Of a stretch of 64,000 nucleotides of DNA, positions 7,037-47,513 are shown piece after piece. Positions within the stretch are counted from its first letter, which is position 1; every line of letters starts with the position of its first letter. Made by a program: the position numbers and the translations under genes. The stretch spans positions 1 through 64,000 of the forward strand of contig NZ_FRFF01000053.1 in NCBI RefSeq assembly GCF_900143625.1. The letters run 5' to 3'. Below the pieces are notes generated by a model. That model made no database searches. It was not told where the DNA came from and worked only from the letters and a program-made list of their open reading frames with translations. The DNA comes from Nocardiopsis sp. JB363. GTDB taxonomy: Bacteria > Actinomycetota > Actinomycetes > Streptosporangiales > Streptosporangiaceae.

Positions 7037-8935
7037 TCAGGGGAAGGGGTGCGGAACGGGGTTGGGCGCCCCGGCCCGTCCCCGCCTCACCTCGCGCTCC
7101 AGGAGATCGTGGAATCGCGGCATCGTCAGGACCCGCTGCTTGCCCCATCCGAAGTCGATGGGGGCCAGACCGGGGGCGATCACACAGACGTTGGAGAGAC
7201 CGACGGATTCCTGTTCCGGCGACGTCTGGTCGACGGCGATCACGTCGAAACCCGCCTTCTCCATCACCGACACGCAGAATCGCAGGTCCTCCAGCAGGTC
7301 CATGGTGCGCGGACGCTCTACCTCCCACTCGCGGTACAGGTCCTCGATGGGCTCGGGACGAGCGTTCGCGAGCAGGAAGTCCGCCGCGGGAGCCATCTCG
7401 GGGAGCGCGAACAACAAGGGGTGGTCCTTGAGTTCCCGCACCAGGCGGTGGTCGTCCGCCATCGCCCGCAGTTCCCCAGCGCGTTTGTCGGCGCGCATGG
7501 CCAGTGAGGGGATGTAGGTCGCGATCTCCGACAGGGCGGAGTGGACGGCGCCTTCGGGGTCCATGGCCGATCCTGCGGCGAAGCAGAGGTTTCCCAGCCC
7601 ACCGTCCCGTCGGACACCCACCGCGTTGACCACCGGGAACGGCAGGTCGATCCTGTTGTCGAAGAGTCGGACGTCGTATCCGTGCAGGCGGATGCGGTCC
7701 ACCATGTGACGTGTCCGTGGTGAACGCAGCGAGTCGACGTCGATCTCCCGCAGCGGCACGGCCCCGTACCAACCGAGTACGAAGGCGTCCCTCTCCATCA
7801 GTTCGAGGAGGGCGTGCAGGATCGCTTCCTCCGGGACACCGCCGACCGCGCAACCGTTGGAGCACTCGTCCACGAACGCTCCGGGGGAACCGTCCCGGAC
7901 GTAGTAGACGAGCTGCTCGGGGACCAGGATCGGACGGTCGTCACGGAGGGACCTGCCCCAGACCCAGGTCATCTCCCGGTCGGGGTCGAAGGGGATCAAA
8001 CGATCGGATCCGGCGTAGAGGGCGTCTTCGTAGGTCCCGCACTCTCGCGGGTCCAGCACGTGCGTCCCCTGCTCGGTGAACTCTCGGTAGCTCCCGACCA
8101 CCAGTTCCCGGTGCCGTCTCTGCTGGGTACCCGCGTGCCGTTCGAGGCCTTCGAAGGCCGCGGAGAAGCGACTCTTCCGGTAGGAGTCGGTCTGCCCCGA
8201 CCAACCCACCTCAAGGAGTCGCCCTCCGGCGGAGACCCGCATGTTCCCGGTCGCGGGCGCCATCGTCGGGGAGGTGAGGTCGAGGTGTACGCCGTCTCCC
8301 AGGACCCCGCACACGGGGTTGGCGAAGACGGCGGTGTCCGTGTCGTGGTCCTCCGCGGAACGGAGTCGAAAGCCGTCGGGATCCGGCTTGCGGCGCGGGA
8401 CCAGGGGGGCGAGCCCGTACTCGGCCGTGGCCGGCACGGGACGCGCGCAACGCGGACATCCGGAGTCGGCGAGCAGGGGGAAGGACCGCACGGCGAGGGA
8501 GGCCAGGGAGAGTTCGACCACCTCGGCGCTCCGGGGGTTTCCGACGGTGGGCCGTTCCCCGCCGATCACCTTCGTGTACAGGTGGTGGACGGCGTCGATC
8601 ATGAAGTCGGTGAGGTAGGGCGCGGAGAAACCTCCGAAGAAGCTTCCTCCGGATTCCAGGACCTCCCGCTCCGCGGGAGGCCGGATCCTCTGCCAACGGG
8701 AGGCGAGACAGTTCACGCAAGGTCCGTGCTCTCCGGCGCCCACCGGACCGATCAGGGCGGAACGGGGGGTGAGGAAGATCCCGGGGCCGTCGCTCCCGAT
8801 GCCCGCCTCCGTCGCGTCGACCATTCCGAGCAGACGGACCCTCGGACGCAGGGCCTCGGGACGCCCCTCCGCGGACCAATACCGGTTCAGTCCGTCCTGA
8901 AGCAGTGTCCCGCTCTCGTGCGCGGCCGATCCCAT
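7037..8935 (-). CDS. YcaO-domain cyclodehydratase (D protein 1) of the RiPP cluster
   Basis: A 632-residue fused C-D type azoline synthetase. The N-terminal E1-like remnant carries a zinc tetrathiolate pair, CVNC (73-76) and CPRC (160-163), but no leader-binding RRE. The YcaO domain runs from about residue 205 (NPVCGVLG) and includes EGLERHAG, VVGSYREF, TWVWGRSL, ECSNGCAVGG and EEAILHALLELMERDAF. It ends in VPHPFP, a PxPxP tail typical of azoline-forming YcaOs. In characterised thiopeptide and LAP systems, a separate F protein presents the precursor and the D protein uses ATP to cyclodehydrate Cys/Ser/Thr. The gene lies directly downstream of the two precursor genes. A paralogue is at 17912-19858. 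The ATG at 8935 is preceded by GGAGTAGG. Confidence 0.93.
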   Translation of the reverse strand: MGSAAHESGTLLQDGLNRYWSAEGRPEALRPRVRLLGMVDATEAGIGSDGPGIFLTPRSALIGPVGAGEHGPCVNCLASRWQRIRPPAEREVLESGGSFFGGFSAPYLTDFMIDAVHHLYTKVIGGERPTVGNPRSAEVVELSLASLAVRSFPLLADSGCPRCARPVPATAEYGLAPLVPRRKPDPDGFRLRSAEDHDTDTAVFANPVCGVLGDGVHLDLTSPTMAPATGNMRVSAGGRLLEVGWSGQTDSYRKSRFSAAFEGLERHAGTQQRRHRELVVGSYREFTEQGTHVLDPRECGTYEDALYAGSDRLIPFDPDREMTWVWGRSLRDDRPILVPEQLVYYVRDGSPGAFVDECSNGCAVGGVPEEAILHALLELMERDAFVLGWYGAVPLREIDVDSLRSPRTRHMVDRIRLHGYDVRLFDNRIDLPFPVVNAVGVRRDGGLGNLCFAAGSAMDPEGAVHSALSEIATYIPSLAMRADKRAGELRAMADDHRLVRELKDHPLLFALPEMAPAADFLLANARPEPIEDLYREWEVERPRTMDLLEDLRFCVSVMEKAGFDVIAVDQTSPEQESVGLSNVCVIAPGLAPIDFGWGKQRVLTMPRFHDLLEREVRRGRAGAPNPVPHPFP

Positions 8936-8965
8936 GTGTGCACCTACTCCTCGTGTGGCCGGTGT

Positions 8966-8985
8966 CCCGCGTCGGCCGACGCGGG
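8966..8985 (-). promoter_or_regulatory. 20-bp perfect palindrome between precursor 1 and D protein 1
   Basis: CCCGCGTCGGCCGACGCGGG is self-complementary over all 20 bases and would form an RNA hairpin (8-bp stem, GGCC loop). It sits in the 84-bp gap between the precursor stop and the D-protein start. It is probably a partial terminator or 3' stabiliser that makes precursor mRNA more abundant than enzyme mRNA. A protein-binding site is also possible. Confidence 0.6.
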
Positions 8986-9019
8986 GCGCCGGCCGACCGA
9001 AGGCATCCGAGAACGGTCC

Positions 9020-9199
9020 CTAGGCGCAGCTGCTCGCCGTGCTGGTGCAGCTGGTGCAGCTGCTGCAGGTGCTGGTGCTGCTGGTGGAGGTGGTGCCCGA
9101 GAGCATCTCTTCGGGGGAGTCCGCGAAGTCGAGGACCTCGAAGGTCTCCGACTCCAGCTGCTCCAGCTCGTGACGCAGGGAGGTGAACGTGTTGTTCAT
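9020..9199 (-). CDS. RiPP precursor peptide 1 (Cys/Ser/Thr-rich core)
   Basis: A 59-residue precursor. The leader, about residues 1-35, contains the recognition-like block LESETFEVLD and ends with SPEEMLSG. The C-terminal core begins TTSTSSTSTC and ends TSTASSCA. From the last leader Gly to the end, 22 of 25 residues are Cys (4), Ser (10) or Thr (8), so nearly every position can be cyclised or dehydrated. The acidic FEVLD-type leader is characteristic of thiopeptide and LAP precursors recognised by F-protein RREs. The start is set at 9199 (MNNTF) with AGAGAAGAG upstream; an in-frame ATG at 9217 is less well placed. It is the second of two paralogous precursor genes, 66 bp apart. Confidence 0.9.
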   Translation of the reverse strand: MNNTFTSLRHELEQLESETFEVLDFADSPEEMLSGTTSTSSTSTCSSCTSCTSTASSCA

Positions 9200-9403
9200 G
9201 GTCGCTCTTCTCTTCATTCTCTGTGGGGGGTCGAAAAGGGGTGGATCATGGACTGCTTTTCCGGGTCAGCCGCCCGCGCAGCTGGTGCTGGAGCAGCTGC
9301 TGCTGGAGCAGCTGGAGCAGCAACTCGTGGTGGACGTGGTGCTGCCCAACATCTCCTCGCGGGCCTCCACCAGGTCGAGGACCTCGAAGGTCTCCGACTC
9401 CAG
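9128..9403 (-). repeat. 30-bp identical repeat shared by the two precursor leaders
   Basis: Thirty identical bases occur at 9128-9157 and 9374-9403, encoding LESETFEVLD in both precursors. The flanking leader and core codons have diverged. This is consistent with gene duplication plus constraint, or gene conversion, on the enzyme-recognition block. Confidence 0.9.
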
Positions 9404-9451
9404 GAGTTCGAGTTCTCCCTGGAGGTTGGACAACGCGGTGGTTCTGCTCAT
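9266..9451 (-). CDS. RiPP precursor peptide 2 (Cys/Ser/Thr-rich core)
   Basis: A 61-residue paralogue of precursor 1. The leader carries LESETFEVLDLVE and ends AREEMLGS. The core begins TTSTTSCCSSC and ends SSTSCAGG. From the last leader Gly onward, 22 of 26 residues are Cys (5), Ser (12) or Thr (5), including one Cys-Cys pair. Blocks identical to precursor 1 are LESETFEVLD, EEML and TTST, which suggests cleavage near EEML-x-x and a core of about 24 residues. AGAGGAGAAG precedes the ATG at 9451, making this the better-initiated of the two. A hairpin lies just upstream, after the transporter genes. It is presumably modified by the LanB pair, the F/D cyclodehydratase and the dehydrogenase encoded upstream. 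Confidence 0.92.
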   Translation of the reverse strand: MSRTTALSNLQGELELLESETFEVLDLVEAREEMLGSTTSTTSCCSSCSSSSCSSTSCAGG

Positions 9452-9474
9452 AGAGCGCTTCTCCTCTGCTCGTC

Positions 9475-9495
9475 GTCCGTGGCGGAGTCACGGAC
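9475..9495 (-). promoter_or_regulatory. 7-bp hairpin upstream of the precursor genes
   Basis: GTCCGTG and CACGGAC pair perfectly around a 7-nt loop, 24 nt before the ATG of precursor 2. It lies in the 111-bp gap after the ABC permease gene and immediately before the ribosome-binding site. It could mark an RNA processing or stabilising site, or an attenuator, between the enzyme genes and the precursors. No clear promoter hexamers were found in the gap. Confidence 0.5.
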
Positions 9496-9562
9496 CCACT
9501 GACGAGCATGGCGATCGGTGCTTGCACTCTCCTGGCAGCGGTATTGCCTCGTCATCGGGCGC

Positions 9563-10315
9563 TCACTTCTCCCCCTTGCTGAAGAAGAAACCCGCGAGAC
9601 CCGCCGTCACCACCGTGAACAACAGGAGCGCGGCGCAAGGGCCGAGGAGCGCCTCCGGCCCCTCCCCGCGGACCAGGAGCGCCAGCATTCCGTCGTTCAT
9701 GTGTCTCAAGGGGCTGGCCAGCGACAGCGTGTCCATCCAGGAAGGCGCGAAGTCCAGGGGGAAGAAGGTCCCGGAGAGGAAGCCGAGCGGAAGTACCACC
9801 AGGTTGCAGGCCGCGGAGGCCGCCTGCTCGGTGCGGAAGACCGCACCGATGAGGATGCCCAGGGAGAAGAAGGAGAGCACGCCGAGGAGGAAGAGCGGTG
9901 TGGCCATCCACCAGCCGCTCTCCAGGCGCAGTCCGAAGAACGGCAGGAACGCCACGGCGAGGAAGAGGGCCGCCTGGATGACGGCCACGACCACCGTCAC
10001 CGCGAACCGCGACATCAGGATGGATTGCGGGTTCACGGGAGCCAACTGGAGACGCCGGAGCAGGCCGTTCTGCCGCCAGTTGACCAGGGTCAGCGCGGAG
10101 GCGAAGACCGCGGACATGGCGATACCGAAGGAGAGGATGCCCGGCGCGATGTACTGAATCGGCTCCAGGGTGCCCTGTCCGCCCTCCATGTCCCTGAAGA
10201 GGACGCCGAACAGCACCAGGAAGAAGAGGGGCAGGACGAACGCGAAGAAGAGGGACGCGCGGTCCCTGACGAAGCCCTTGGTGACGGCCAAGGAGATCTG
10301 CTGGAAGGCGATCAT
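9563..10315 (-). CDS. ABC-2 type transporter permease
   Basis: A 250-residue membrane protein with about six hydrophobic segments. It has the ABC-2 exporter pattern: a short cytoplasmic N-terminus (MIAFQQISLAVTKGFVRDR), a first segment FAFVLPLFFLVLFG, and later FLSGTFFPLDFAPSW followed by LASPLRHMNDG. It probably exports the mature peptide or gives self-protection together with the ATPase encoded upstream, whose stop overlaps this start (ATGA). It is the last of the tightly packed run before the precursor genes. Confidence 0.9.
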   Translation of the reverse strand: MIAFQQISLAVTKGFVRDRASLFFAFVLPLFFLVLFGVLFRDMEGGQGTLEPIQYIAPGILSFGIAMSAVFASALTLVNWRQNGLLRRLQLAPVNPQSILMSRFAVTVVVAVIQAALFLAVAFLPFFGLRLESGWWMATPLFLLGVLSFFSLGILIGAVFRTEQAASAACNLVVLPLGFLSGTFFPLDFAPSWMDTLSLASPLRHMNDGMLALLVRGEGPEALLGPCAALLLFTVVTAGLAGFFFSKGEK

Positions 10316-11235
10316 GACCGGTACTCCCTTCCGGTGAGTTCGAGGAAGACGTCTTCCAATGAGGCGGCACGGATTTGGAGGGATCCGGCGATCCCCCTCT
10401 CGGTGAGGGCCCGCATGAGGGGCCCCGGGTCAGCGGCGCTGAAACGCACTCGGCCGTCCTCCTCCGTCACCTCCTCGACACCGGGGAGCCCCCGGACGTC
10501 GTCGGGACCGATCACGCTCACGGGCAGTTCCATGCTCGTCGGCCGTCCCAGGGCGCTGACGAGTTCGGACGGTGTGTCCATCGCGATCACACGACCGCCG
10601 TCGAGGATCGCGATCCTGTCGCACAGGCGCTCGGCTTCCTCGATGTAGTGGGTGGTGTAGACGATCGTCTTGCCTTGTTCCTTGATCCCGCGCAGGACGT
10701 CCCACAGGTTGCGCCGCGCTTGGGGATCCAGGGAGGCCGTCGGTTCGTCCAGGAACAGGACCTCGGGGTCGTGCACCAGGGCGCAGGCGATCGACAGCCT
10801 CTGTCGCTGGCCACCGGAGAGCTTGTCCTCCCGGACCCCCGCGTGATCGGTGAGCCCGACGAGGGCGAGCAGCTCGTCGGTCCGGCCCACCCCGGCCCCG
10901 TAGAGGGCTCCGAAGGTGGACAGTTGCTCACGTGCCGTCAGACGTTCGAAGAAGGCCGAGGACTGGAGCTGCACGCCGATCCTCGTCAGCAGCGCGGTGT
11001 TCCTCGGCCAGGGGGACGACCCCAGGAGCGACACCGAACCACTGTCGGACCGACGCAGGCCCTCGATCATCTCCAGCGTCGTGGTCTTGCCCGCGCCGTT
11101 GGGGCCGAGAAGTCCGAAGAACTCCCCCTCGTGGACGGTGAACGACACGTCGTCCACGACCTTCTTGCCCCCGTAGGCCTTGGAAAGCCCTTGTACGGCC
11201 ACGGCGACCGCTGCGTCGCCGGTCTCTTCCATCAT
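10312..11235 (-). CDS. ABC transporter ATP-binding protein
   Basis: A 307-residue DrrA/CcmA-type ATPase. Walker A GPNGAGKTT is at 44-52, the Q-loop region VQLQSSAFFERLT near 88-100, the signature LSGGQRQRLS at 139-148, and Walker B VLFLDEPTASLD at 159-170, followed by the H-loop in YTTHYIEEAERL. The C-terminal 70 residues form the accessory region of DrrA-like exporters. The ATG at 11235 overlaps the upstream protease stop (ATGA) and has AAGGAGAG before it. It pairs with the permease downstream for export or immunity. Confidence 0.94.
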   Translation of the reverse strand: MMEETGDAAVAVAVQGLSKAYGGKKVVDDVSFTVHEGEFFGLLGPNGAGKTTTLEMIEGLRRSDSGSVSLLGSSPWPRNTALLTRIGVQLQSSAFFERLTAREQLSTFGALYGAGVGRTDELLALVGLTDHAGVREDKLSGGQRQRLSIACALVHDPEVLFLDEPTASLDPQARRNLWDVLRGIKEQGKTIVYTTHYIEEAERLCDRIAILDGGRVIAMDTPSELVSALGRPTSMELPVSVIGPDDVRGLPGVEEVTEEDGRVRFSAADPGPLMRALTERGIAGSLQIRAASLEDVFLELTGREYRS

Positions 11236-12464
11236 GTTCTCTCCTTGTTCGCGATCCGATTCCGCCGTCGTACCGCGACGATTCGGTAGACGACGGTGAC
11301 CAGCACGGCCGTGACGATGAGGATCAGTGCCGCCGCCACCGCCCCATAGAGGTGCTCCAACAGCGCGAACCACCACCACAGCACCAGCGACGCCAGTGCC
11401 GTGTAGAAGATCGCCGCGAGCACGGCGTAGGCGGTGTAGACGTTTCGGGCCCATCGGGGCGGCCGGGGCGCCGGGGTCCCGCGACTCAGGAAGTCCCTCA
11501 GCGAAGCGGCCACGTGGGCGGCGGAATCCCGTGCGAGGTTCTCCGTGCCCAGGGCGTGGTTCAACATCGCGTAGCCGTCCAGGCGCAGGAACGGTACGAA
11601 GTTGGCCAGTGCCGCGGCGGTCCCGAAGAGCAACAGCATCGAAGTGAGCGTGTGCGCGGCGCCGCCCTCGGGAGCCGCCAGCCAGAAGGGCACCACCAGT
11701 GGCAGTGTGAGGAGGCTGACGAAGACCCCCGCGAAGGCGATGTGGACCCGATGCCTACCGGGCAGGAGTTGGATCTCCTCGACCGAGCAGTAGGGGGCGA
11801 TGAGCGGGAACCGCCATTGGATCCCGATCTCTCCCACCCTGGCCCCGAAGTGCTTCGCGGTGAGGCCGTGTCCCACCTCGTGCAGGGCGACGACACCCCA
11901 CAGGATCAGCAGCGCGACGACGCCCGTCCACGGACGTTCCCACACCCCGGCGGCGGCCCCCACCAGCGACGGCAGGTTCCACACGATCACCACCAGGGTG
12001 GCGGTGACCAGGACCATCGCGGTGAGGGTGAACCCCGGCGAGAACACCGGGGACACCCGTTCGGCCAGCCTCCCCAACCGCTCGTCGGGACGGAAGAGGG
12101 GCAGCCGAACCCGCAACAGCGAGGCCGGCTCCCGAGTGATGGCGGACGGGGTCCGCTCGTCGGGGGCCATGCCCTCCAGGAAACGCCGCCCGGCCAGCGT
12201 CCCCATGATGCCGCCCCACGCCCGGTCATCGAGTACGCGACCGAACTCGGCCCTGTACTCGGAGGAGATGTCGGCGATGCTGTGATCGCCGTCCAGCCGG
12301 GAGATGATGAAGTGTTCACGCTCGCCCACCGTCATCAACCGCCCCGACAGCGGGTCCTTGATGACGTGCGCGTATCCGGCCCCTCGCAGCAGGGCGGGCC
12401 CCACCACGAGGTCGTCGCGGATGCGCGGGCGCGCGGCGGCGGCGTCCGTCTCGGAGAAGCTCAC
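11232..12464 (-). CDS. RRE (PqqD-like)-M50 metalloprotease membrane fusion
   Basis: Candidate leader peptidase of the cluster. Residues 20-98 form a PqqD/RRE-like winged-helix domain (MTVGEREHFIISRLDGDHSI). Hydrophobic segments then enclose the zinc motif HEVGH (195-199), and NFVPFLRLDGYAML provides the second M50 motif (N-x-x-P, LDG). About six further membrane segments follow; total 410 residues. M50 proteins occur in other peptide-maturation clusters (YydH-type), but the RRE fusion suggests direct leader recognition (inference). The GTG start overlaps the TGA of the upstream LanB elimination gene (GTGA), so translation is probably coupled. Only this start brings the RRE into frame without a long unrelated extension. 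Confidence 0.88.
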   Translation of the reverse strand: MSFSETDAAAARPRIRDDLVVGPALLRGAGYAHVIKDPLSGRLMTVGEREHFIISRLDGDHSIADISSEYRAEFGRVLDDRAWGGIMGTLAGRRFLEGMAPDERTPSAITREPASLLRVRLPLFRPDERLGRLAERVSPVFSPGFTLTAMVLVTATLVVIVWNLPSLVGAAAGVWERPWTGVVALLILWGVVALHEVGHGLTAKHFGARVGEIGIQWRFPLIAPYCSVEEIQLLPGRHRVHIAFAGVFVSLLTLPLVVPFWLAAPEGGAAHTLTSMLLLFGTAAALANFVPFLRLDGYAMLNHALGTENLARDSAAHVAASLRDFLSRGTPAPRPPRWARNVYTAYAVLAAIFYTALASLVLWWWFALLEHLYGAVAAALILIVTAVLVTVVYRIVAVRRRNRIANKERT

Positions 12465-13537
12465 GGTGTCGACTCCGCGGTGCTCTCCCGGTCCGCGACC
12501 ACCCGTTCGAGCAGGTAGGACAGGTAGGCCTCGTCGACGATGGTCGCGCCCAGTCGGTTGTTGGTCATGTGCATATAGGGCGAAAGCAGGATGCGCAGCG
12601 CCACGTCGGGGTCGGTCACCGGCTCGAAGCGCTCGTCCGTGCGCGAGTGGCGGAGCCGTTCGGGGTCCCACGTGGGGAAGAGCAGGTCGCCCTTCTTCGC
12701 GAGGTCGACGACGCGTGCGCGCAGTTCCCGGCAGTGCTCCGCCCACGCCCGGGCGAAGGAACTCAGCCGGGCGGAGTCGTCTCCGCTCACCGCGGCCTCG
12801 ATGTCGAAGAAGCGCTGGGACAGCCGCTCCGACATGTGGCCGAAGTTCTCCTCGTATTTGTCGACGCTCGCCAGGTCGGTGATCTTGAAGGCGTGCTGCC
12901 AGAACTCGTGGTAGCCGCGGTAGAAGGACCGCAGGTCCGTGTGGTCGGGCAGGAACGCGGTCCCCATGACCATCATCAACTGGGAGGAGATACCGAGCAG
13001 GACCGTGCGCAAGTGTGTGTTCGCCTGGTCCAGGATGCTCAACACCAGGTCGCTCGAATGCTCGAAGTGCCACTCGGCGAGCTCGATGCCCCGCGGCCCC
13101 CCGTACTTGGCGTACTCCGGCTCGTAGGGAAGGTAGGCGTAGGAGTTGTTCTCTCGGAGCGGCATGGGGCCGTCGCTGCCGTAGCGTTCGACCCGCTCCT
13201 CCTCGGAGTACTCCAGCCGGAACATGTCCTCGTACATTTCGAGCAGGAACTCGGAGTCGTAGTCGTAGAGCGCCGGCCGTCGTTTCAGGTAGGCCGTGAT
13301 GGCCTCCTCCACGGTGCGACGCACCTCCTCGGCCAGCTCGGGCCTGCGGGGTTTGACGCGGAACCGTACGTGCTGCCCTTCCAGCCAGTAGTTGATGAAG
13401 AAGAAGCGTTCCAGGAGGTCGCGCTCACGAAGGTCGTGGATCAAGGGGCGGACGCACTCCGTCAGAACGGGACGGGAGTCCGCCGCGTAGAAGATGTGGA
13501 TGGCCATCCAGTCGGCGCCACCGTCGGTCGGTCTCAT
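12461..13537 (-). CDS. Split LanB elimination protein (SpaB_C / thiopeptide-type biosynthesis domain)
   Basis: A roughly 358-residue stand-alone domain that removes glutamate from glutamylated Ser/Thr to give dehydroamino acids. Family marks are the N-terminal MAIHIFYAADSRPVL, FFFINYWLEGQHVRFRV, YEPEYAKYGGPRGIELAEWHFEHSS and the C-terminal HMTNNRLGATIVDEAYL. It follows the glutamylation gene with no gap, so the two are the split halves of a class I lanthipeptide-type dehydratase. Related SpaB_C proteins also perform the [4+2] pyridine-forming step in thiopeptides. The conserved YGG and H-x-x-x-N-R elements, plus the position beside LanB, favour elimination. Starts GTG 13540, ATG 13537 and ATG 13507 are all possible; ATG 13537 is used. 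Confidence 0.88.
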   Translation of the reverse strand: MRPTDGGADWMAIHIFYAADSRPVLTECVRPLIHDLRERDLLERFFFINYWLEGQHVRFRVKPRRPELAEEVRRTVEEAITAYLKRRPALYDYDSEFLLEMYEDMFRLEYSEEERVERYGSDGPMPLRENNSYAYLPYEPEYAKYGGPRGIELAEWHFEHSSDLVLSILDQANTHLRTVLLGISSQLMMVMGTAFLPDHTDLRSFYRGYHEFWQHAFKITDLASVDKYEENFGHMSERLSQRFFDIEAAVSGDDSARLSSFARAWAEHCRELRARVVDLAKKGDLLFPTWDPERLRHSRTDERFEPVTDPDVALRILLSPYMHMTNNRLGATIVDEAYLSYLLERVVADRESTAESTP

Positions 13538-13540
13538 CAC

Positions 13541-16315
13541 TCACGCCTCGCCTTCTCGTCGGTCGGACCCGGCCCTGGGGGTCCTGGTGATCTCCACCGT
13601 CTGCTCGGTGACGTACGCGCCGTCCTCCCCTTGGAGCCACAGCTCGTCGGGGGCGGGAAGCATCTCCGTCATCACCACGCGCCGCTCCGCCCTGGTCGCC
13701 ATGTGGTCCAGCGACTGCAACGAGAAGTAGTTGTCGAAGTCCACGTACTGGGGTTTGGTCGGATGGGTCGCCCCGGCCTCCTCCGCGCCGTCCTTCCGGT
13801 CGCCCAGCAGCGTGTCGACGGCGGCGAACACTCTCCGGGGAAGCCCGTTCTCCCGGCGCCAGCGCTGCCAGGACAGGAACCAGTCGGCCTCGTCCTGGCC
13901 CTTCTCCCTGCGAGGCAGGTGCGAGGGCGTCATCTTCCAGGTGTGCCTCGCCAACACGAGGTCGCGGTAGCGCACTCGGGGATGGCCGCCGATCGGCGAG
14001 TCCCCCAGCGGTTTGTCGGTGCCCTGCCACAGGTCCAGCGGAGCCATCGCCGTGGGAGAGAACAGCAGCAGTGCCCTCTGCACCTCGGGGAGGGCCAAGG
14101 GCATGAGGAAGCCCAGGTAGACCGGGATCACGGTGCGATCGATCCGGGGGCAGTACAGGTGCAGCCCCTTATCGGGACTGTGTCGGATCTGGAGTTCCTC
14201 GACCCGGATGCACTCCGCCTCGGGGCGTGAACTGGACTCGCCGGGGCAGACGATCTCGAACTCGGTGACGGCCGGGTGCAGGTTGAGGTTGGTGCTGTCG
14301 TACCCGCCCGTCAGTTCGGCGAGGACGGCGTCCTCGGGGCACACCCGCAGCAGGGTCTCGCGGAGTTCGTCGACCAGGGCCGGTTCCCGCGTGTGCTGGA
14401 AGCAGTGCAGGAAGCGCGAGTACAGCAGGGTCAGGCCGCTGTAGGAACGGTTGACCACTCCCAGCGCCCGGTCACCCTGCTGGGCGACCTGGAGGAAGAA
14501 ACTGCGCGAGTCGAGCTGTTGGACCGCCGGGGGCAGCTTCTCGGCCACGGCCGTCATGAAGTCGTCTCCGAGTACGAGCTCTTCCTCGGGGTCGGGAAGC
14601 GCCGAGTACGCCTCGCGCATACGGCCGATCAGCTCGACCCGGGCATCGTTGAGGGCGTCGATCTCCGGCATGCGCAGCCAGTTGTCCAGGGGGACGTACT
14701 CACCCTGCTCGTCGAAGTCCTTGCGCCGGCCGCCGGCCTGGAGGTACTGGTCGTAGATGTCCAGGTGGAACTCGTGGACGAACTTCAGGACGTCGTCACA
14801 GGTCCCGCTCTCGCCGTAGCGGGCGCGGAAGAAGCCCAACAGGATGAGTCGGTGCGGGAGCAGCATGTCGAACAGCGGCAGGATCCCCGTCAGCCCTTGG
14901 AGATCGTGCAGGAGTGTGTCGTCCCAGAGTTCCTTGTCCGCGCGGACGTCCAGGTCGGGCAGGGAGACGTCCTCGTAGAGGACCCCCGGGGGAAGCTCCG
15001 CCGCTTCCGGGACGAGCGACTTCAACGCCCTGTTCAGGGTGGCGTGGACGGCGTCGCGCAGTTCGCGGCGCTCGGTGGTCCCCGCTTCGGGGTAGGTGTC
15101 GGCGAGCGTGGCGGTCCGGTCGAGTTCCGTCACGAGGGTGTCCGACCAGGGACGGTCGAGTACGGCCAGGCCGTCGCGGAAGGTCCGAAGCGGGTCATCG
15201 CTGTGGATGTCGATGTCCAGGCTCGGCAGGGTCAGCAGGCTCAGCCTGATCAGGGCCCGCAGGTAGGTCCGTAGTTCCTCGGGCTCTCGTCCCCCGACGT
15301 CGGCCAGCCTGTCCTGGAGTTCACCCAGCCTCATACCGGGTTCGTCCGCCAAAAGGGCCATGATCTCGTTGAGCAGCCCGCTGTTGGAGATGAAGAAGAG
15401 CTCTTCGCGCAGCGACTCGAAGACGGCGGGGTCCTCGGCGTCACCGCTGAGCTTGGTCCTGCGCACGTAACGGATGCGTTCGCGGTCCAGGCTGTGTCCC
15501 GAGGACAGGGCCACGGGCAGGTCGGTGAGGCGTTCCCAGTCCTCGGCGATGGAGGAGGCGATCCTGCCGAGCGCGGCCATGTTCACCCTGACGTGGCTGT
15601 GTCCGGCCAGTCCGCGCGGGTCCGCACCCAGCGGTACGCCCGCCAGGGGTTCGAACGTTCCTGTCGCCACTGTGGTCAGGGTGCTGAAGGGGCTGGTCTT
15701 GCAGGCCGTACGGAACACGTACTCCAGGAGTGAACGCTCGATCTTGCGCGCACGTTTGGAGAGGGCTCCGGGAGCGGCGTCGAGGTAGGCCGGCAGGTAC
15801 CGCTCCAACGAGGGGGAGGCGAGCAGGAGCCCGTGGCGGAGCCTGGGGTCGTCCGCGAGCTCTCGCAGATAGGAACGTTGTTCCGCCAGTTCGTTCGAGA
15901 GGAGGGTCCTCCCCTCGGCCCGCCGCCGTTCCAGTTCCTCCCGTTCCTCGATCCAGTCGCCGACCGCCCGTCGCACGTCCTCGGGCAGACGCTCCATGAC
16001 CGGGGTGAGCCGGGCCCGCCCCCGGGGCACCCGAAAGTTGAAGATGTCCCTGCGAAGGGACAGCAGGACCCGGCGTGTCTCGTTGTCGTACTCGGTCACC
16101 AGGGGTTCGAGCGTGTCGCTGATCCCCCGGGCACGGTCCTTCAGCCCGGACTCCCGTGCCAGGATCGCGTCCGCCCACTCGGCGGTCGTGTCACAGGCGA
16201 GCGGCCGCACCGCCGACCACGGCAGCCCGCCGACCCTGAGCATGAACACGTCCGTACTGATCCAGCCGTCGTCGGGCAGGGGACGTGCCGGCGCCACCGT
16301 CGCATTCTCGGTCAT
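13541..16315 (-). CDS. LanB-like glutamyl-tRNA-dependent dehydratase (glutamylation domain)
   Basis: A 924-residue Lant_dehydr_N protein that transfers glutamate from Glu-tRNA to Ser/Thr of the precursor (established for NisB- and TbtB-type enzymes). Visible family segments are DVFMLRVGGLPWSAVRPL at the N-terminus, LLASPSLERYLPAYLDAAP, SLLEYVFRTACKTSPFSTLTTVATG and SHVRVNMAALGRIASSI. LNLHPAVTEFEIVCPGES and HTWKMTPSHLPR mark the C-terminal half. The elimination module is not present and is encoded next door. Start ATG 16315 is chosen because GGTGGAGA lies 7 nt upstream; longer alternatives at 16345 and 16381 overlap the dehydrogenase gene. Confidence 0.92.
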   Translation of the reverse strand: MTENATVAPARPLPDDGWISTDVFMLRVGGLPWSAVRPLACDTTAEWADAILARESGLKDRARGISDTLEPLVTEYDNETRRVLLSLRRDIFNFRVPRGRARLTPVMERLPEDVRRAVGDWIEEREELERRRAEGRTLLSNELAEQRSYLRELADDPRLRHGLLLASPSLERYLPAYLDAAPGALSKRARKIERSLLEYVFRTACKTSPFSTLTTVATGTFEPLAGVPLGADPRGLAGHSHVRVNMAALGRIASSIAEDWERLTDLPVALSSGHSLDRERIRYVRRTKLSGDAEDPAVFESLREELFFISNSGLLNEIMALLADEPGMRLGELQDRLADVGGREPEELRTYLRALIRLSLLTLPSLDIDIHSDDPLRTFRDGLAVLDRPWSDTLVTELDRTATLADTYPEAGTTERRELRDAVHATLNRALKSLVPEAAELPPGVLYEDVSLPDLDVRADKELWDDTLLHDLQGLTGILPLFDMLLPHRLILLGFFRARYGESGTCDDVLKFVHEFHLDIYDQYLQAGGRRKDFDEQGEYVPLDNWLRMPEIDALNDARVELIGRMREAYSALPDPEEELVLGDDFMTAVAEKLPPAVQQLDSRSFFLQVAQQGDRALGVVNRSYSGLTLLYSRFLHCFQHTREPALVDELRETLLRVCPEDAVLAELTGGYDSTNLNLHPAVTEFEIVCPGESSSRPEAECIRVEELQIRHSPDKGLHLYCPRIDRTVIPVYLGFLMPLALPEVQRALLLFSPTAMAPLDLWQGTDKPLGDSPIGGHPRVRYRDLVLARHTWKMTPSHLPRREKGQDEADWFLSWQRWRRENGLPRRVFAAVDTLLGDRKDGAEEAGATHPTKPQYVDFDNYFSLQSLDHMATRAERRVVMTEMLPAPDELWLQGEDGAYVTEQTVEITRTPRAGSDRREGEA

Positions 16316-16337
16316 CGTGTCTCCACCGTCGGTTGCT

Positions 16338-17891
16338 TCAGACATTTCGGTACACGAACTCGGGTTGCCCACCGCGTTCATGGCCGATCATGAGGATCAG
16401 CAGGGGCCACTCCGTCTCGTCGGTGATCCGCAATTCCTCCCGGTACGAGACGTTGTCGAAACCGAGGGCGGCGCCGCAGCCGACGCCGAGCGCGGCGCAC
16501 GCCAGGTACACGCTCTGTGTGACCGCGCCGACCTCGGCGTTGACCAGGCGATAGCCCCGGGGACCGACCACTCCGGTCACCGCCGCGGGGCGGGCGACCA
16601 CCGTGACCACGGCGGCGCACTGCTCAAGGTTGTAGTTGTTCAGGAAGTAGTTGCGCTGGAGGAACTCGGCCACGCTGTGCTCCTGCACGGACCGCAGTTC
16701 GCCCTCCCCCATGGCGAAGTCGTAGCTCCCCGCGGGCAGGTCGGCGACATGGTTGGCGAACACCGAGACCCGGGTGAGGCCCGTGTCGTTGAGCAGTGTC
16801 GACGCGTCGCCCGCCGCCGTCAGGATCGCCGAGAGGTCCCGCTGGGCCAGCGGCCGCTCCGCGCTGAACCTCCCGAAACCGCTGCGCCGTTCCCGCAGCG
16901 TGGTCGTGACGGGAACGTCGAGCGGGGCCGGAGGAGGCAGGCGGCGGGACGTCGCGGCGGGGGCCGGGAGGGCGCGGGCTTTCGCGAGACCGGCCTCGTC
17001 GGGTTCCTCCCGGGAGGAACCGAGGATCTCCCGGTGGACATCGAGCACCTGGGAGAACCGGACGACCTCGCGTGAGCGTTCCGACTCGGTGATCTTCACC
17101 GTGGGCCGGCCCACGGGCTCCGCCGCGGGTCGCGGGTCGCTCCCCGGCCAGGACAGGGGGACGACGGCGAGCACGCTCTCGTCGCCGGAGTCCAACCCCA
17201 AGAGTTCGTTCAAGGCGGGCTCGTCGAACCAGAAACGGGGCTTGAGGGAGAGACCGGCGGCCCGGGCCGCGATGCTCCACGTACCGAGCAACGTACCCAC
17301 GTCCATGGTGACCGCGTGATAGCAGAAGCTGTTGTACTTGAAGGAGTTCTTCCAGAACTTGACGCTGATCAACAGGTACTGGTCCGTGTCCTGGGCGTCC
17401 CGGGGCAGCGCCGCACGCACGTGGGGGGTGACGTCGCCCGCGAGGAGCCTCTGCATGGAGTGGTGCGACGTGCTGTAGTTGTGGATCCCGGGCGGCAGCG
17501 GTCCGGAGGGCCCGCTGACCCAGTAGACCTCCAGCGGATAGAGGCCTCCCCCCGAGGCCACCCCCCGCGACCAGGTGGCCGATGGGAACCACGGCATCCC
17601 GCGCAGATCGGGGTTGCCGTGCACGGCGAGGCGTCTTCCGGTCAGGCCGTAGGAGTCACGGAGCAGGGAGGAGAGCCGGGGCAGCGTCCACTCCCCTTCG
17701 CCCTCGGAGCCGAGGCCCTGGCCCAGGTCCCCCGGCAGGGGGGAGGACGGGGGCAGGGGAAGCCGCACCGCCCCGGGGTAGTACTTGTGCCGGCGGGGCT
17801 GGTCGCCCCAGTCGGGTTCGAACCCCCGTGGCTCCATCGGTTCCCTCGCTCGACGCACGATGGCGTCGATGTAGGTGTCCACGGCTGTCAT
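16338..17891 (-). CDS. SagB-type azoline dehydrogenase with two nitroreductase-like domains
   Basis: FMN-dependent oxidase that converts azolines to aromatic azoles. The 517-residue protein shows two nitroreductase-like halves. The first is about residues 60-300 (SRGVASGGGLYPLEVYWV, then YNSFCYHAVTMDVGTLLGTW). The second is about 330-517 (LRERRSGFGRFSAERPL, VNAEVGAVTQSVYLACAALGVGCGA). The first carries the SGG-LYP motif of SagB enzymes, and the double layout is common in thiopeptide clusters. Start ATG 17891 has a strong GGAGGAG site. The gene begins 20 bp after D protein 2 and ends 22 bp before the chosen LanB start, so it belongs to the same operon. Confidence 0.93.
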   Translation of the reverse strand: MTAVDTYIDAIVRRAREPMEPRGFEPDWGDQPRRHKYYPGAVRLPLPPSSPLPGDLGQGLGSEGEGEWTLPRLSSLLRDSYGLTGRRLAVHGNPDLRGMPWFPSATWSRGVASGGGLYPLEVYWVSGPSGPLPPGIHNYSTSHHSMQRLLAGDVTPHVRAALPRDAQDTDQYLLISVKFWKNSFKYNSFCYHAVTMDVGTLLGTWSIAARAAGLSLKPRFWFDEPALNELLGLDSGDESVLAVVPLSWPGSDPRPAAEPVGRPTVKITESERSREVVRFSQVLDVHREILGSSREEPDEAGLAKARALPAPAATSRRLPPPAPLDVPVTTTLRERRSGFGRFSAERPLAQRDLSAILTAAGDASTLLNDTGLTRVSVFANHVADLPAGSYDFAMGEGELRSVQEHSVAEFLQRNYFLNNYNLEQCAAVVTVVARPAAVTGVVGPRGYRLVNAEVGAVTQSVYLACAALGVGCGAALGFDNVSYREELRITDETEWPLLILMIGHERGGQPEFVYRNV

Positions 17892-17911
17892 GGCAGGCTC
17901 CTCCGGGCGGT

Positions 17912-19858
17912 TCACGGGAACGGATGGGGGACGGCGGCGGCCAAGACCTCGTCGACCCGGGATCGACTCCAACCGAGATCGTGTGCGACCCGGCCGATCC
18001 TCGGCATGAGGAGCGCGCGCTGTCGGTCCCAGCCGAAGTCGATGGGCAAAAGTCCGGGCGTCAGCACACAGAACGTGTGCACACCGCTCCGAAGTTGTTC
18101 GGGGGAGGTCTGGTCCACCACCACGCAGTCGACGCCCGACCGGGCGAGTTCGCTCCGGCAGTAGCGCAGGTCGTCGGTGAGATCGTCGTTACGCGGACGG
18201 TCCCGGTACCACTTCCGGTAGACCTGATCCGCGGGCACGGTCGGCCCGGGCTCTTCGCCATGGGGTCCCAGGAGGTGATCGGCGTGGGCCCGCATCTCGG
18301 GGAGTCCGTACAGCCTCGGATGGTCCGCCAGTTCCCGTACGAGCCTGAAGTCGGCGGCCATGTCGAGCAGCCGTTCCCGGGAGTGCGTGGCGTAGGCCTC
18401 GGCGTTGGGAACCTCGAAGGCCACCTCACGTAGCGCCGAGTTCGCCGCCGATTCCGGGTCCAGGCTCGCCCCGGCACCGAAGCAGAGGGTTCCCGGTCCG
18501 CCGTCCGCACGCTCGGCGACGACGATCACGACGGGGATCGCGAAGACCGTTCGGGCGTCGAAGAACCGTGCCCGGTACCCGTACAACGCCAGGCGGCGCA
18601 CCATCCACCGGATGTCCGGGGACCGCCAACTGTCCGCCGCGATCTCGGTCGCCGGGAACCGCCCGTACCAGGTGAGGAGGAACGCGTCCCGTTCGACGCG
18701 TTCGAAGAGCCCGTGCAGGATCGCCTCCTCCTCGCTACCGCCGGTGGCGCATCCGTTGGAGCACTCCTGGACGATCTTCCGGTCCTCCCCGAGCCCGTGG
18801 TAGTAGACCGAGACCTCGGGGACGAGTACCGGACGCCGTTCGCCCAAGGAACGACCCCAGACCCAGGTCAGCGGCGTGTCCTCGGTGAAGGACCGGTACT
18901 CGGGGTTGTGCTCGTAGAAGACGGGGTCGTAGGTGCCCAGCTCACGTGGGTCGAGCGCGTCCGCCGCGAACTCCCGATAGGTGCCCCTGACCGAGGGCCG
19001 GTACCTTCTCGGCGCCAGACCCGCCGACCGCTCCAATCCCTCCAGCAGCCCGAAGCGGAGGCTGTCGCGGTAGGTGTCGGCGTGACCGCCCCAGTAGGAG
19101 GGGTGCAGGTAACCCGGTCCCCGCACGGACACGTATCCGACCGCCGGAGCCGTGGTGGTGTTCTCCAAACGCAGCACCCCCTTGGCCGAGAGCGCTCCGC
19201 ACACGGGGTTGACCAGGGCGGTCTCCGACATCCGGTACTCGGACACGGACCGCACCCGCATCGCGTCGGTGGAGCTCTTGGCGCGCGGCCGCAGTTCCGC
19301 CACGGTGTGCTCGGGACCATCGGGGAGCCGGGTCGCGCAGGCCGGGCATTGCGAGTCGGGGACCAACGGGTGACGGTCGATCCGCAGGTCCGCCAGGTCC
19401 AGGCGGTAGACATACCGGTTACCGCTGTCGTCGGTCTCGTCCAGGAAGGGAGCGGACGTCAACGTCCGAGCGAGGGAGCACACGGTGTCGATCGCGAACC
19501 CGGTCAGGTAGGGCGACGGGCTGTGCGCCCGCATCCTGGACCCCTTCTCCAACGTGTCCCGGTACTCGTCCGGGCGCAGCTGCTGCCAACGGCGAGCCAG
19601 GCACACGAGGCATCCGGGGGCCAGGGCCGGATCCCGCCGGACCGGTCCGATGAGCACGTATCGGTCGTTCAGGAGAAGGGGGAGCAGGGGGGAATCCGGG
19701 TCGAGGCCTTCCCACCAACGCGCGGACGGGTTCCACAGCAGGTCCTGTTCACCCAGCGTGCGCACGGCGATGGCGAGCGACCCCTGCCCTCCCAGGGCCT
19801 CCTCCAGCCGGACCCGTGCCTGTTCCAACGGCTCCGCTCCGGCCCTTTCCCCGTTCAT
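17912..19858 (-). CDS. YcaO-domain cyclodehydratase (D protein 2)
   Basis: A 648-residue paralogue of D protein 1 with the same plan: zinc cysteines CLVC (83-86) and CPAC (171-174), a YcaO domain from NPVCGALS with EGLERSAG, TWVWGRSLG, QECSNGCATGG and EEAILHGLFERVERDAF, and the PxPxP tail VPHPFP. All visible catalytic segments are intact, so neither copy looks like a pseudo-enzyme. Its ATG overlaps the F-protein stop (ATGA), implying coupled translation and a stable F-D2 complex. It may differ from D1 in residue choice (Cys versus Ser/Thr) or in preferred precursor; this is inference. Confidence 0.93.
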   Translation of the reverse strand: MNGERAGAEPLEQARVRLEEALGGQGSLAIAVRTLGEQDLLWNPSARWWEGLDPDSPLLPLLLNDRYVLIGPVRRDPALAPGCLVCLARRWQQLRPDEYRDTLEKGSRMRAHSPSPYLTGFAIDTVCSLARTLTSAPFLDETDDSGNRYVYRLDLADLRIDRHPLVPDSQCPACATRLPDGPEHTVAELRPRAKSSTDAMRVRSVSEYRMSETALVNPVCGALSAKGVLRLENTTTAPAVGYVSVRGPGYLHPSYWGGHADTYRDSLRFGLLEGLERSAGLAPRRYRPSVRGTYREFAADALDPRELGTYDPVFYEHNPEYRSFTEDTPLTWVWGRSLGERRPVLVPEVSVYYHGLGEDRKIVQECSNGCATGGSEEEAILHGLFERVERDAFLLTWYGRFPATEIAADSWRSPDIRWMVRRLALYGYRARFFDARTVFAIPVVIVVAERADGGPGTLCFGAGASLDPESAANSALREVAFEVPNAEAYATHSRERLLDMAADFRLVRELADHPRLYGLPEMRAHADHLLGPHGEEPGPTVPADQVYRKWYRDRPRNDDLTDDLRYCRSELARSGVDCVVVDQTSPEQLRSGVHTFCVLTPGLLPIDFGWDRQRALLMPRIGRVAHDLGWSRSRVDEVLAAAVPHPFP

Positions 19859-22029
19859 GCGTTCCCGTCAGGCTCGGTGAACAACACCTTGGCCGTGTGG
19901 ACACCGCAGCGCGCCAGGTCCGAGGTGCCGGTCTGGACGGCGACGGCCTTCCGTCCGTCCCCGGCGAGGTCTTCGCGTACCTGGTCGGCCGTGGTGCGGA
20001 CGTCGTCCGGCCGTTCCGTCGAGGCGTCGGAGCCGGGGTCGGAGTCGAGGACGAGGGAGCGCGGGTCGAAGCCCTCCAGCCACGTGTCGGTCGCCTCCTC
20101 CGCCGGAACACCGTTCTCCGTCAGTTGTTCGAGGGCGACCAGGTCGCGCAGCGCGGCGGTCACGGCCTCGGTCGTGGAGACGCCGAAGCCCAGGGCCCAG
20201 TCCGCACTGTCCACACGGCGGGCGACGACGGTGGGAACGGAGCCTGTCAGCCGGAGCAGCTCCACCTCCGTTCCCATCGTCGCGGCGACGCCGGTCAGGA
20301 ACTCCAGCTCGCTTCCGACAGGTGGATCGGACGGGTCGATCCGCGTGACCGGGCGGCCCGAGGCCGCCTCCCGCAGAGCGTCGAAGGCACCCGCGCTGAA
20401 CAGGGCGGCGTTGATCGCGTATGCGGCCGTGGAGCCCGCTCCCTCACCCGCGACCGTCCGCTCGAAGAGTCCTTCGGAGTTGAACGCGGAGAAGGGGTGG
20501 ACCGCGGCCAGGGGGACCTCCCGGACCACACCGTCGATCAGGCAATGACCGCGCGCGAGCGGCCCCTCGGCCTTCGATCCGGGCACACCGGTCGCCGTGC
20601 CGATCCGGCCCACGTCCGGTCGGCCCGGGTCCCCGGTGACGGTGGCGTTGGTCCTGACGTATCTCAGGGCGGCGGCGCGCATCGTCCGCAGCCGGGCCCG
20701 CAGGGTGGTGTGAACGTCCGCGCGCGCGATCCTCGAACCGTTCCCCTCCTGCCCGACGAAGCCGAGCCTGCTCACCTTCAGGGGGGACTGCGTCAGATCC
20801 AGGTCCAGGTACTCCTGGATGATGCCCAGGCGTGCGCCGACCAAGGCCTCGGCGGCCTGGTACGCCTCGCTCACGGAATCGTCGTCCTCCGGTTCGGCGT
20901 CGAGACCGATCGGCGGGGCGACGGCCGGGGGACCGGCCTCGTGAGGGGCGGGGCAGGACGGGTGCGGCAACACTCTTTCCGAGGCGCTGTCGAGGGTGCG
21001 CAGGTCCTGGACCAGGGCCGCTTCGAGCGTTTCGCCCGCCAGGACCCCCGTCGCCCAGCGGAAGGCCTCGAAGGCCAGCGCGTTACCGATCATCGCCGTC
21101 TGTGGCTCGTGGATCCGGGTACTCGCGGGCTGTCCACCGTCGACCTGGAAACGGCGCCAGATCCGTGCCGACACCTCGGCGTCCGCCGCTTCGGTGTACC
21201 GAAGGAGGAAGCAGTTCCAGCAGGAGTCCGTTCCGTGCGCGTTGAGCGGGCCGACCACCGCGTGCTCGCCGAGCAGTACCGCGGGAAGCAGGGGCGGCGC
21301 GTCGGCGTCCGCGCACAGGCGCCACACGTGTGCCAGGGATCGCTCGTCCGCGGTCACGAGGACCAGGTCGTATTCGGACAGATTCGCACCGGTCACCGTG
21401 GCCAGGGACAGGTCCGCGTCACGCAGCTCGACCGGACAGCCGTCCCCCTTCAGACGGTCGGCCTCGTCGAGGAGCTCGTCTGTGATCCCGCCGCCATCGG
21501 CCATGTCCACGCTCGCCGCACCATTGCGGAGCAGCCCGAGTGCGGCCCAACCGGTGAGCGGACCGTCCCCCGCCACGAGGACGCGCAGATCGCGGAATCG
21601 GGCGAACCGCTCGACCGCCCCGTCGACGTAGTGCTCGACGTAGTCGATCTGACGCTGGAACCCGGCCTGGATCTCCGGGGCGAGCGCCCCCTCGGGAGAG
21701 AGCCGGGAATCACGGGCGAAACCGCGTTCGAGCAGGGTGCCGACGAGGCTGAGCAGCATCGGTCGCTGCTGTTCCGGGATCGCCTCGGCCAACTCCTCGA
21801 CGGTGACCTTCCCCGTGAAGTAGGGGGCCAGCGCCGAGAAGAACCGGTACGCCCCTCGTCCCTTGACGACGAAGCTGGCGTCGGCGTGCCGAAGTAGCAC
21901 CCCCGAACCGGTGTCGGCGAACAGAACGTCGTGCCGAAGGCGGGGTCGACTGCCCCACACCGGGTCTCTTCCCCCGTCCGGGCCGGAAGCGTCCGGCTTC
22001 TCCTGGTCCCTGGGCTCTGCCTGCTGCAT
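19855..22029 (-). CDS. Ocin-ThiF-like F protein with RRE, leader-binding partner of the cyclodehydratase
   Basis: First gene of the biosynthetic operon. Residues about 30-105 form a PqqD-like RRE (HDVLFADTGSGVLLRHADAS, AYRFFSALAPYFTGKVTVEEL) that should bind the FEVLD leader block. An E1/ThiF-like domain follows (LRVLVAGDGPLTGWAALGLL), with the CWNC cysteine pair near 270-273. The last 300 residues resemble the C-terminal part of a YcaO fold (FGVSTTEAVTAALRDLVALE, then QTGTSDLARCGVHTAKVLF) but lack the PxPxP tail. F proteins of thiopeptide and heterocycloanthracin systems deliver precursor to the D protein. Start ATG 22029 is preferred over a TTG at 22050; the choice is uncertain. Confidence 0.88.
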   Translation of the reverse strand: MQQAEPRDQEKPDASGPDGGRDPVWGSRPRLRHDVLFADTGSGVLLRHADASFVVKGRGAYRFFSALAPYFTGKVTVEELAEAIPEQQRPMLLSLVGTLLERGFARDSRLSPEGALAPEIQAGFQRQIDYVEHYVDGAVERFARFRDLRVLVAGDGPLTGWAALGLLRNGAASVDMADGGGITDELLDEADRLKGDGCPVELRDADLSLATVTGANLSEYDLVLVTADERSLAHVWRLCADADAPPLLPAVLLGEHAVVGPLNAHGTDSCWNCFLLRYTEAADAEVSARIWRRFQVDGGQPASTRIHEPQTAMIGNALAFEAFRWATGVLAGETLEAALVQDLRTLDSASERVLPHPSCPAPHEAGPPAVAPPIGLDAEPEDDDSVSEAYQAAEALVGARLGIIQEYLDLDLTQSPLKVSRLGFVGQEGNGSRIARADVHTTLRARLRTMRAAALRYVRTNATVTGDPGRPDVGRIGTATGVPGSKAEGPLARGHCLIDGVVREVPLAAVHPFSAFNSEGLFERTVAGEGAGSTAAYAINAALFSAGAFDALREAASGRPVTRIDPSDPPVGSELEFLTGVAATMGTEVELLRLTGSVPTVVARRVDSADWALGFGVSTTEAVTAALRDLVALEQLTENGVPAEEATDTWLEGFDPRSLVLDSDPGSDASTERPDDVRTTADQVREDLAGDGRKAVAVQTGTSDLARCGVHTAKVLFTEPDGNA

Positions 22030-36404: not shown

Positions 36405-36554
36405 CCAAGACCCTCTTTGTCGACTCGTGCGGTGATTACCATGCTTAAGGGGTGCCAACCGATGTTAATTAGGCGATTCGTGGTGTTCACGAGATCATCT
36501 ATAGCGTAGTCACCCATACACGAAACCTTGTAGGTGGACGGAGAAGGGACCCCC

Positions 36555-43335: not shown

Positions 43336-43399
43336 ACCCCGTGGCCCCGCCCCAGCCCGAGTCCCCGTCCCGTACCCCGCTAGTTCTTCGCCTCTGAGG

Positions 43400-47219: not shown

Positions 47220-47513
47220 ATGGGTAGTAACTTCGACGTTTACGGCAATGTCGGTGGGCTGCAGAACCTGGCCTCCGACCAGCAGGCGCACTTGGGCCGT
47301 TTCACGGCCATCATGAGCACGATCAACGAGCAGTCCGAAAGCACGGTCAGCCAGTGGGAGGGTTCCGGGAGCTCGCAGTTCCAGGCCAAGGCCCAGGAGT
47401 TCGACACCCACTTCTCCGAGGTCAACTCCGCGTTCGCGAAGATGATCGACGCGACCGATGAAACCGCGAACAAGTACGACAAGCTCACCCGGCACCTCGA
47501 CGGTCTGTTCTAG
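47220..47513 (+). CDS. WXG100-family protein 2 (EsxA-like)
   Basis: A 97-residue protein with the canonical W-E-G turn in STVSQWEGSGSSQFQAKAQE, between helices ASDQQAHLGRFTAIMSTIN and FSEVNSAFAKMIDATDE. Length and layout are standard for ESAT-6-like proteins. It would form a heterodimer with the preceding gene product and bind the last ATPase module of EccC. Confidence 0.93.
   Translation: MGSNFDVYGNVGGLQNLASDQQAHLGRFTAIMSTINEQSESTVSQWEGSGSSQFQAKAQEFDTHFSEVNSAFAKMIDATDETANKYDKLTRHLDGLF

Follow-up and report, generated by a model that had tools for sequence, protein, structure and literature searches.

The question raised by the eleven-gene run on the minus strand of the DNA analysed here (64,000 nucleotides of contig NZ_FRFF01000053.1 of Nocardiopsis sp. 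JB363, called below the window) is whether its enzymes build a thiopeptide, the heading under which annotation models file its precursors, or a peptide that stays linear. From position 22029 down to position 7037 the run encodes an F protein, a YcaO cyclodehydratase (D2), a SagB-type oxidase (B), a LanB glutamylation enzyme, a LanB elimination enzyme (LanBc), an RRE-M50 protease, the separate ATPase and permease of an ATP-binding cassette (ABC) exporter, the precursors A2 and A1, and a second cyclodehydratase (D1). It is quite probable that these genes constitute a complete cluster for ribosomally synthesized and post-translationally modified peptides (RiPPs) with two linear products combining azoles and dehydroamino acids, and, as far as sequence comparison can tell, the cluster reads as a linear, goadsporin-like azole/dehydroalanine (Dha) system rather than as a thiopeptide one. 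The initial annotation had listed the same activities, a double SagB among them, in eleven genes, and all were found at the place and on the strand given there, with two stretches in the oxidase for each of the models TIGR03605 and PF00881.

The curated cut-offs of the corresponding models are passed by D1, D2, SagB, LanBc (PF14028 and TIGR03891), and both precursors. The F protein scores far under the TIGR03693 cut-off of 561.9 and above that of TIGR03882, and is presumed to be the leader-binding partner of the cyclodehydratases. From the F gene to the permease gene the adjacent frames overlap or almost touch, which is consistent with one operon; coordinates and translations together give ATGA or GTGA overlaps at F/D2, LanBc/M50, M50/ATPase, and ATPase/permease. 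The SagB gene begins with ATG preceded by GGAGGAG, and for A1 a start at 9199 is more likely than one at 9217. In agreement with the initial annotation, neither a P450 nor a methyltransferase nor an amidotransferase was matched among the cluster proteins scanned, and an Rfam scan gave no match.

The gene set recurs well outside the window. A scan of named genomes with a 16-sequence alignment of the glutamylation enzyme gave 413 pattern matches and 354 relatives; the locus comparisons rest on the best 80 of these 354, with 62 loci longer than 22 kb (the long loci). Among the best 80 there are loci of Nocardiopsis, Actinomadura, Micromonospora, Stackebrandtia, Pseudonocardia, Nonomuraea, many Streptomyces (one being S. 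spinoverrucosus, NZ_BJND01000045.1), and others. The F protein, present in the window's operon, occurs in all 62 long loci, as do B and both LanB enzymes, and 60 of the 62 keep the order F, D, B, glutamylation enzyme, LanBc, M50 (by mapped genes, between which precursors may lie, and irrespective of strand), the exceptions being L112 with no M50 match and L119 with a different order. Two D genes are found in 46 long loci, a SARP match in 42, and the full order of the window including ATPase, permease, and D in 41, of which 40 also have the SARP. A gene order that recurs in dozens of species is not a chance grouping. When 341 genomes of the same family were searched with the glutamylation enzyme, 53 had a match at E 1e-20, close in 24 of them including the own genome (39–100% identity over a long stretch) and mostly of 26–30% identity in the rest. 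Counted by the LanBc profile at E 1e-60, the cluster is marked in 19 of 394 genomes taken across the class, 7 of 40 Nocardiopsis genomes (own genome included), and 48 of 295 sampled Streptomyces genomes; thus about one in six of the latter carries the gene set, yet no product was found in the open literature. The unfamiliarity of the gene order claimed by the initial annotation holds insofar as no characterised cluster, and no description of the cluster family or its product, was recognised in the parts of the open literature available, outside which most subscription journals lie, and this is weak evidence of absence; it does not hold insofar as the order is widespread in actinobacteria and the precursors are already caught by thiopeptide-named NCBI models. 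The result that the initial annotation had named as refuting it, strong similarity to a characterised thiopeptide or goadsporin cluster carrying the same precursors, did not turn up, no comparison with MIBiG having been run.

The step that separates a thiopeptide from a linear product is the pyridine synthase, and LanBc looks like an elimination enzyme and not like such a synthase. Its R, R, E, K, and H residues align to NisB positions 784, 786, 823, 826, and 961. At NisB R786, E823, and H961 the residues R, E, and H are found in 18 of 18 members of the cluster family and in 11 of 11 thiopeptide elimination proteins (the one of locus L157, matched over less than 200 residues, was excluded, hence 11 of 12), while at the same sites the pyridine synthases carry N or H (12/12), R (12/12), and Y (11 and one gap); R784 is retained in all three groups. 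The same three sets resolve as separate groups in the tree, with Shimodaira-Hasegawa-like approximate likelihood ratio test (SH-aLRT) supports of 98, 98, and 100. Against the pyridine-synthase model the window LanBc reaches 110 bits at a cut-off of 325, and 60 of 338 related genomes contain matches above this cut-off, up to 506 bits. No pyridine synthase of the NF045556 type was found at E 1e-40 in the window's genome (99.96% complete, 210 contigs). In a six-frame scan of the DNA available, the window and 78 of the 80 loci each yielded a single LanBc-type protein and no pyridine synthase, while the remaining two, L056 and L102, which are short contigs, yielded neither. Applied to 12 thiopeptide loci, the same scan recovered one protein of each type, elimination and pyridine synthase, in all 12; since a pyridine synthase was the criterion for choosing these controls and the models derive from them, they show no more than that the scan works. 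The proposal of the initial annotation that core chemistry alone would define an azole- and dehydroamino-acid-containing product is supported at the level of sequence, and it can be sharpened: with an elimination-type LanBc and no pyridine synthase found in the locus, the product should be linear. The nearest solved chains of the LanB glutamylation enzyme by phmmer are 6ec7 (E 2e-35) and 9jhq, the goadsporin protein (E 1e-21), and the enzyme is presumably tRNA-Glu dependent. Separately, the own genome holds five further PF14028 matches (L135–L139 on contigs C27 and C168), which belong to other LanB-type loci; two of them lie in frames of 1007 and 1064 aa with smaller ones close by.

The precursors point in the same direction by the regularity of their cores. 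Candidates were taken as small open reading frames (ORFs) with an S/T/C-rich tail or the leader motif ELExxTFEV/I. A loose form of this motif is present in 127 small ORFs from 71 of the 80 loci, the nine loci devoid of a precursor-like ORF being contigs shorter than 17 kb, and 124 of the 127 (70 loci) end in a stretch made only of S, T, C, A, and G, with up to two trailing residues allowed. The A2 core reads in threes as S-T-T, S-T-T, S-C-C, S-S-C, S-S-S, S-C-S, and S-T-S, followed by a tail, and A1 has S at six of eight third positions. In the lineage with two D proteins serine recurs at period 3 (0.260 versus 0.102 ± 0.035 in shuffled cores, p=0.001; 30 unique cores, 8 after thinning at 70% identity), with periods 2, 4, 5, and 6 not significant. 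The period is also seen in five held-out cores that are of neither window, Nocardiopsis, nor Streptomyces type (p=0.004) and in the window's own A1/A2 pair (p=0.02). No period was detected in the single-D cores (23 unique, 7 thinned), a set of 19 loci assigned partly by gene content, with L087 showing no D on its contig; a period of 2 that seemed real in several individual single-D cores disappeared on thinning. Within the Streptomyces-type two-D branch (52 precursors in 45 loci with a precursor) 19 of 52 precursors end in STSCSSTSTCSSTTSTTSCSA and 11 more are one residue off, and a single 21-residue core pattern fits 39 of the 45 loci, while all 41 fitting precursors are distinct in DNA. A core shared despite distinct DNA may be a hint that the peptide has a conserved function in physiology or signalling and is not an antibiotic subject to drift. 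The ratio of nonsynonymous to synonymous polymorphism on this core (0.66, and 0.38 in the leader) was set aside as uninformative, because switches between Ser codon blocks count as nonsynonymous and the selecting pattern fixes 17 of the 21 positions.

The second peculiarity of the cluster is its pair of cyclodehydratases. D1 and D2 align end to end, retain the conserved columns, and terminate in PHPFP; both exceed the TIGR03604 cut-off of 219.25 and match the C-domain model TIGR03882 above its cut-off. In the D tree, which took in 56 of 123 extracted D rows, the copies that adjoin the permease or are inverted (the D1 position) form one clade across genera (21/21, SH-aLRT 99), and the other side consists of the copies between F and B together with the single-D lineage. 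Among the labels of this tree, L059 and L060, which do have two D, appear as single since their second D was removed by the length filter, and L104 appears as single since its contig ends. Cores of the two-D lineage contain more Thr than the single-D ones (0.31 versus 0.17), less Cys (0.17 versus 0.24), and are shorter (21.5 versus 32.3 residues, thinned mean), with label permutation p values from 0.0003 to 0.005. The link between D1 and core composition is a correlation that stems essentially from one tree split and hence offers no independent events to test. A third YcaO gene of the own genome (C28:16638-17678, L003, 114 bits) lies outside the cluster.

On this basis the following pathway is proposed. 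The F protein would bind the leader through ELExxTFEV/I and pass it to D1 and D2, which would cyclise Cys, Thr, and Ser residues of the core, and the double SagB would oxidise the azolines to azoles. The glutamylation and elimination enzymes would then convert a Ser preceding an azole to Dha, so that a core of Ser-(Cys/Thr/Ser)-X repeats could become Dha-azole-X. Finally leader removal at the membrane would fall to the RRE-M50 protease, the probable leader peptidase, and export of the product to the ABC pair. For the triplet model with assumed cleavage sites, 7 azoles and 7 dehydrations per core are predicted, with [M+H]+ about 1985.57 for A1 (core from TTST; 2251.83 unmodified) and about 2002.51 for A2 (core from STTS; 2268.77 unmodified). 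The gene content and its conserved order, the elimination residues, the period-3 core, and the failure to find a pyridine synthase are observations, whereas we infer each enzymatic step and the sequence of steps, the site of cleavage, the linearity of the product, and a division of labour between D1 and D2, the last in view of the Thr-rich cores of the D1-bearing lineage. A more far-reaching proposal, which is offered tentatively and with more doubt than confidence, is that the two-D lineage represents a RiPP class of its own: a pair of YcaO paralogues would share one F protein and split the core, one being Cys-directed and the other Thr/Ser-directed, and a triplet grammar would lead to (Dha-azole-X)n foldamers. 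With cores of almost nothing but Ser, Thr, and Cys, the family is an extreme example from nature of two enzyme types, cyclodehydratases and dehydratases, drawing on the same residues, a matter of timing and selectivity whose basis was called unknown in the dehydrazole paper (PMC10676384; here and below, what is ascribed to a cited paper refers to the part of it that was available), and the question of residue sharing becomes testable through the D1/D2 split and the core pattern that goes with it.

Several observations weigh against a linear product and speak for a thiopeptide cluster, in which LanBc itself or an unlinked enzyme would form a pyridine from two Dha residues and close a macrocycle. 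A1 and A2 pass NF033400 (a "thiazolylpeptide-type bacteriocin" model with a cut-off of 30) and A1 also passes TIGR03892, LanBc has its lowest NCBIfam E-value with the pyridine-synthase model, although under the cut-off, and the fold comparison puts LanBc nearest to TbtD/PbtD. The thiopeptide reading was nevertheless rejected on residues, tree, and gene content, despite the fold comparison: LanBc is set apart from the pyridine synthases, a second protein of this kind is absent from the window and from the available DNA of the 80 loci, and the genome search at E 1e-40 gave no NF045556-type protein, so that such a macrocyclic product is considered very unlikely. The cluster is easily mistaken for a thiopeptide one, since the models file its precursors there though no pyridine synthase was found.

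Hardly credible is a lanthipeptide-like product, in which Dha and dehydrobutyrine (Dhb) from the split LanB would react with core Cys to give thioether rings; many Cys and Ser in one core and a full split LanB would suit it, but no LanC-type cyclase was found among the cluster proteins scanned, and F, two D, and B suggest that the Cys are used for azoles. The most serious competitor, though still an unlikely one, is that the product belongs to a class already in the literature, for instance the spongiicolazolicins, so that the gene family alone would lack a description. A marine Streptomyces yields the linear azole peptides spongiicolazolicin A, with 29 residues, and B, with 28 (PMC8838263). 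Their modification pattern is said to resemble Dha/Dhb-azole-X closely, with a smaller number of dehydrated residues (PMC11583998), and several cores of the single-D lineage are of similar length, 26–30 residues; the cores of the window's lineage are shorter, and the likeness is judged by description. The linear azole/dehydroamino acid cluster is retained as the preferred reading, and its features are collected below.

Table. Features of the cluster and its divergent regulator, in order of transcription of the operon
Feature	Position	Strand	Evidence
F protein (ocin-ThiF-like)	19855..22029	-	TIGR03693 60.7 bits; TIGR03882 46.9 bits; ATG start
D2, YcaO cyclodehydratase, F-B position	17912..19858	-	PF02624 256 bits; TIGR03604 281.5 bits; C-terminal VPHPFP
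B, double-domain SagB-type azoline dehydrogenase	16338..17891	-	TIGR03605 139 bits; PF00881; two stretches each
LanB glutamylation enzyme (start codon unsure)	13541..16381	-	PF04738 135.6 bits
LanB elimination enzyme (LanBc), stand-alone, predicted	12461..13537	-	PF14028 149 bits; NisB-aligned residues; grouping apart from pyridine synthases
RRE/PqqD-like stretch fused to M50 intramembrane protease	11232..12464	-	NF041824 138 bits; TIGR04248 20.5 bits; PF02163 29 bits
ABC transporter ATPase	10312..11235	-	PF00005 105 bits; TIGR01188 234 bits (below cut-off)
ABC-2 permease	9563..10315	-	PF01061 98 bits
Precursor A2, core ~STTSTTSCCSSCSSSSCSSTSCAGG (cleavage site assumed)	9266..9451	-	NF033400 33.6 bits, cut-off 30
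Precursor A1, core ~TTSTSSTSTCSSCTSCTSTASSCA (cleavage site assumed)	9020..9217	-	NF033400 50.8 bits; TIGR03892 35.5 bits; both above cut-off
D1, second YcaO cyclodehydratase, own clade	7037..8935	-	PF02624 274 bits; TIGR03604 300.5 bits; C-terminal VPHPFP
SARP regulator, divergent from operon	4726..6603	+	PF03704 114 bits

The SARP gene that was described by the initial annotation as flanking the run does exist, but it lies outside the left edge of 7037 given there. In the M50 protein the HExxH and LDGY motifs are invariant across 14 aligned sequences, that of the window included. Some features of the neighbourhood and of the related loci may be recorded separately. The window also contains a type VII secretion-like locus with an EccD-like gene (35064-36458, minus strand), an EspA-like TPR gene (43256-46012, plus strand), and a WXG100 gene (47220-47513, plus strand), amid which an ORF of 1350 aa is located (36534-40586), and three protein-kinase-domain proteins (28834-30900, 33036-35054, and 47962-49947, plus strand), two of them with weak C-terminal beta-propeller matches. 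In 40 of the 80 loci, and not in the cluster of the window, an amidohydrolase-like ORF (M20-type by eye; for example L070, 19300-20670) lies near the precursor and the second D, mostly at 18.8–20.7 kb of the loci. Split tblastn matches were obtained for F in L097, L125, and L131 and for B in L101 and L131, where insertions, duplications, or sequence errors are possible.

The best match of the RRE-M50 protein is the daptide protease model among the M50 proteases of daptide and epipeptide pathways (NF041824, NF058609), but it stays below the cut-off of 300 bits and so is not a member of that equivalog; an M50 protease is described as serving an epipeptide pathway (PMC10885120). In the survey of Cox and co-workers (PMC4603692) an F protein was met in only two cases apart from the clusters of heterocycloanthracins and thiopeptides. 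The same source describes the coryneazolisins, a bioinformatic class which shares with the window two D proteins, LanB-like dehydratases, a mostly Cys/Ser/Thr core, and the lack of a [4+2] enzyme; compared by description, they differ in belonging to Corynebacterium and in having one discrete D and one fused to the C protein, whereas both D proteins of the window match TIGR03882. The one paper matched by the letters of core and leader (PMC11251773) was discarded, the match being a bridging code and not a sequence.

Azoles together with dehydro residues are attributed to two main classes, the thiopeptides and goadsporin with the related spongiicolazolicins (PMC10676384). The dehydrazoles of the same paper (carnazolamide) likewise have Dha ahead of azoles and many azoles and Dha per peptide, but they rely on a LanM-type dehydratase and a nitrile-hydratase-like leader, in contrast to the split LanB and short leader of the window cluster. 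With the thiopeptides of thiomuracin type the cluster shares the F protein, YcaO, SagB, the split LanB, and the precursor models TIGR03892/NF033400, and it differs in the pyridine synthase of TbtD/PbtD type, which was not found for it. The goadsporin system (god) differs in turn by several features: the window cluster encodes two D proteins alongside an F protein, its cores consist almost entirely of S/T/C, and a stand-alone M50 protease with a two-part exporter takes the place of the peptidase-ABC fusion GodB. Neither such a fusion nor a GNAT N-acetyltransferase (GodH) was found among the scanned proteins of the cluster and its near neighbourhood. Both systems combine azole formation with a split LanB; the window cluster has a YcaO cyclodehydratase, an azoline oxidase, and a split LanB with no pyridine synthase found, and goadsporin is grouped with the systems lacking a [4+2] enzyme (PMC4603692). 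Of the two solved relatives of the glutamylation enzyme, one is a goadsporin protein. For goadsporin, azole formation is described at T2, T5, and C8; its glutamylation enzyme accepts the peptide only when this bears azoles, and Dha at S4 and S14 seems to require the azoles at positions 5 and 15 (PMC5303826). A2 has T2, T5, and C8 in the same register, each preceded by Ser, and as a sequence pattern the Ser spacing of three in the window cores matches Dha-azole-X.

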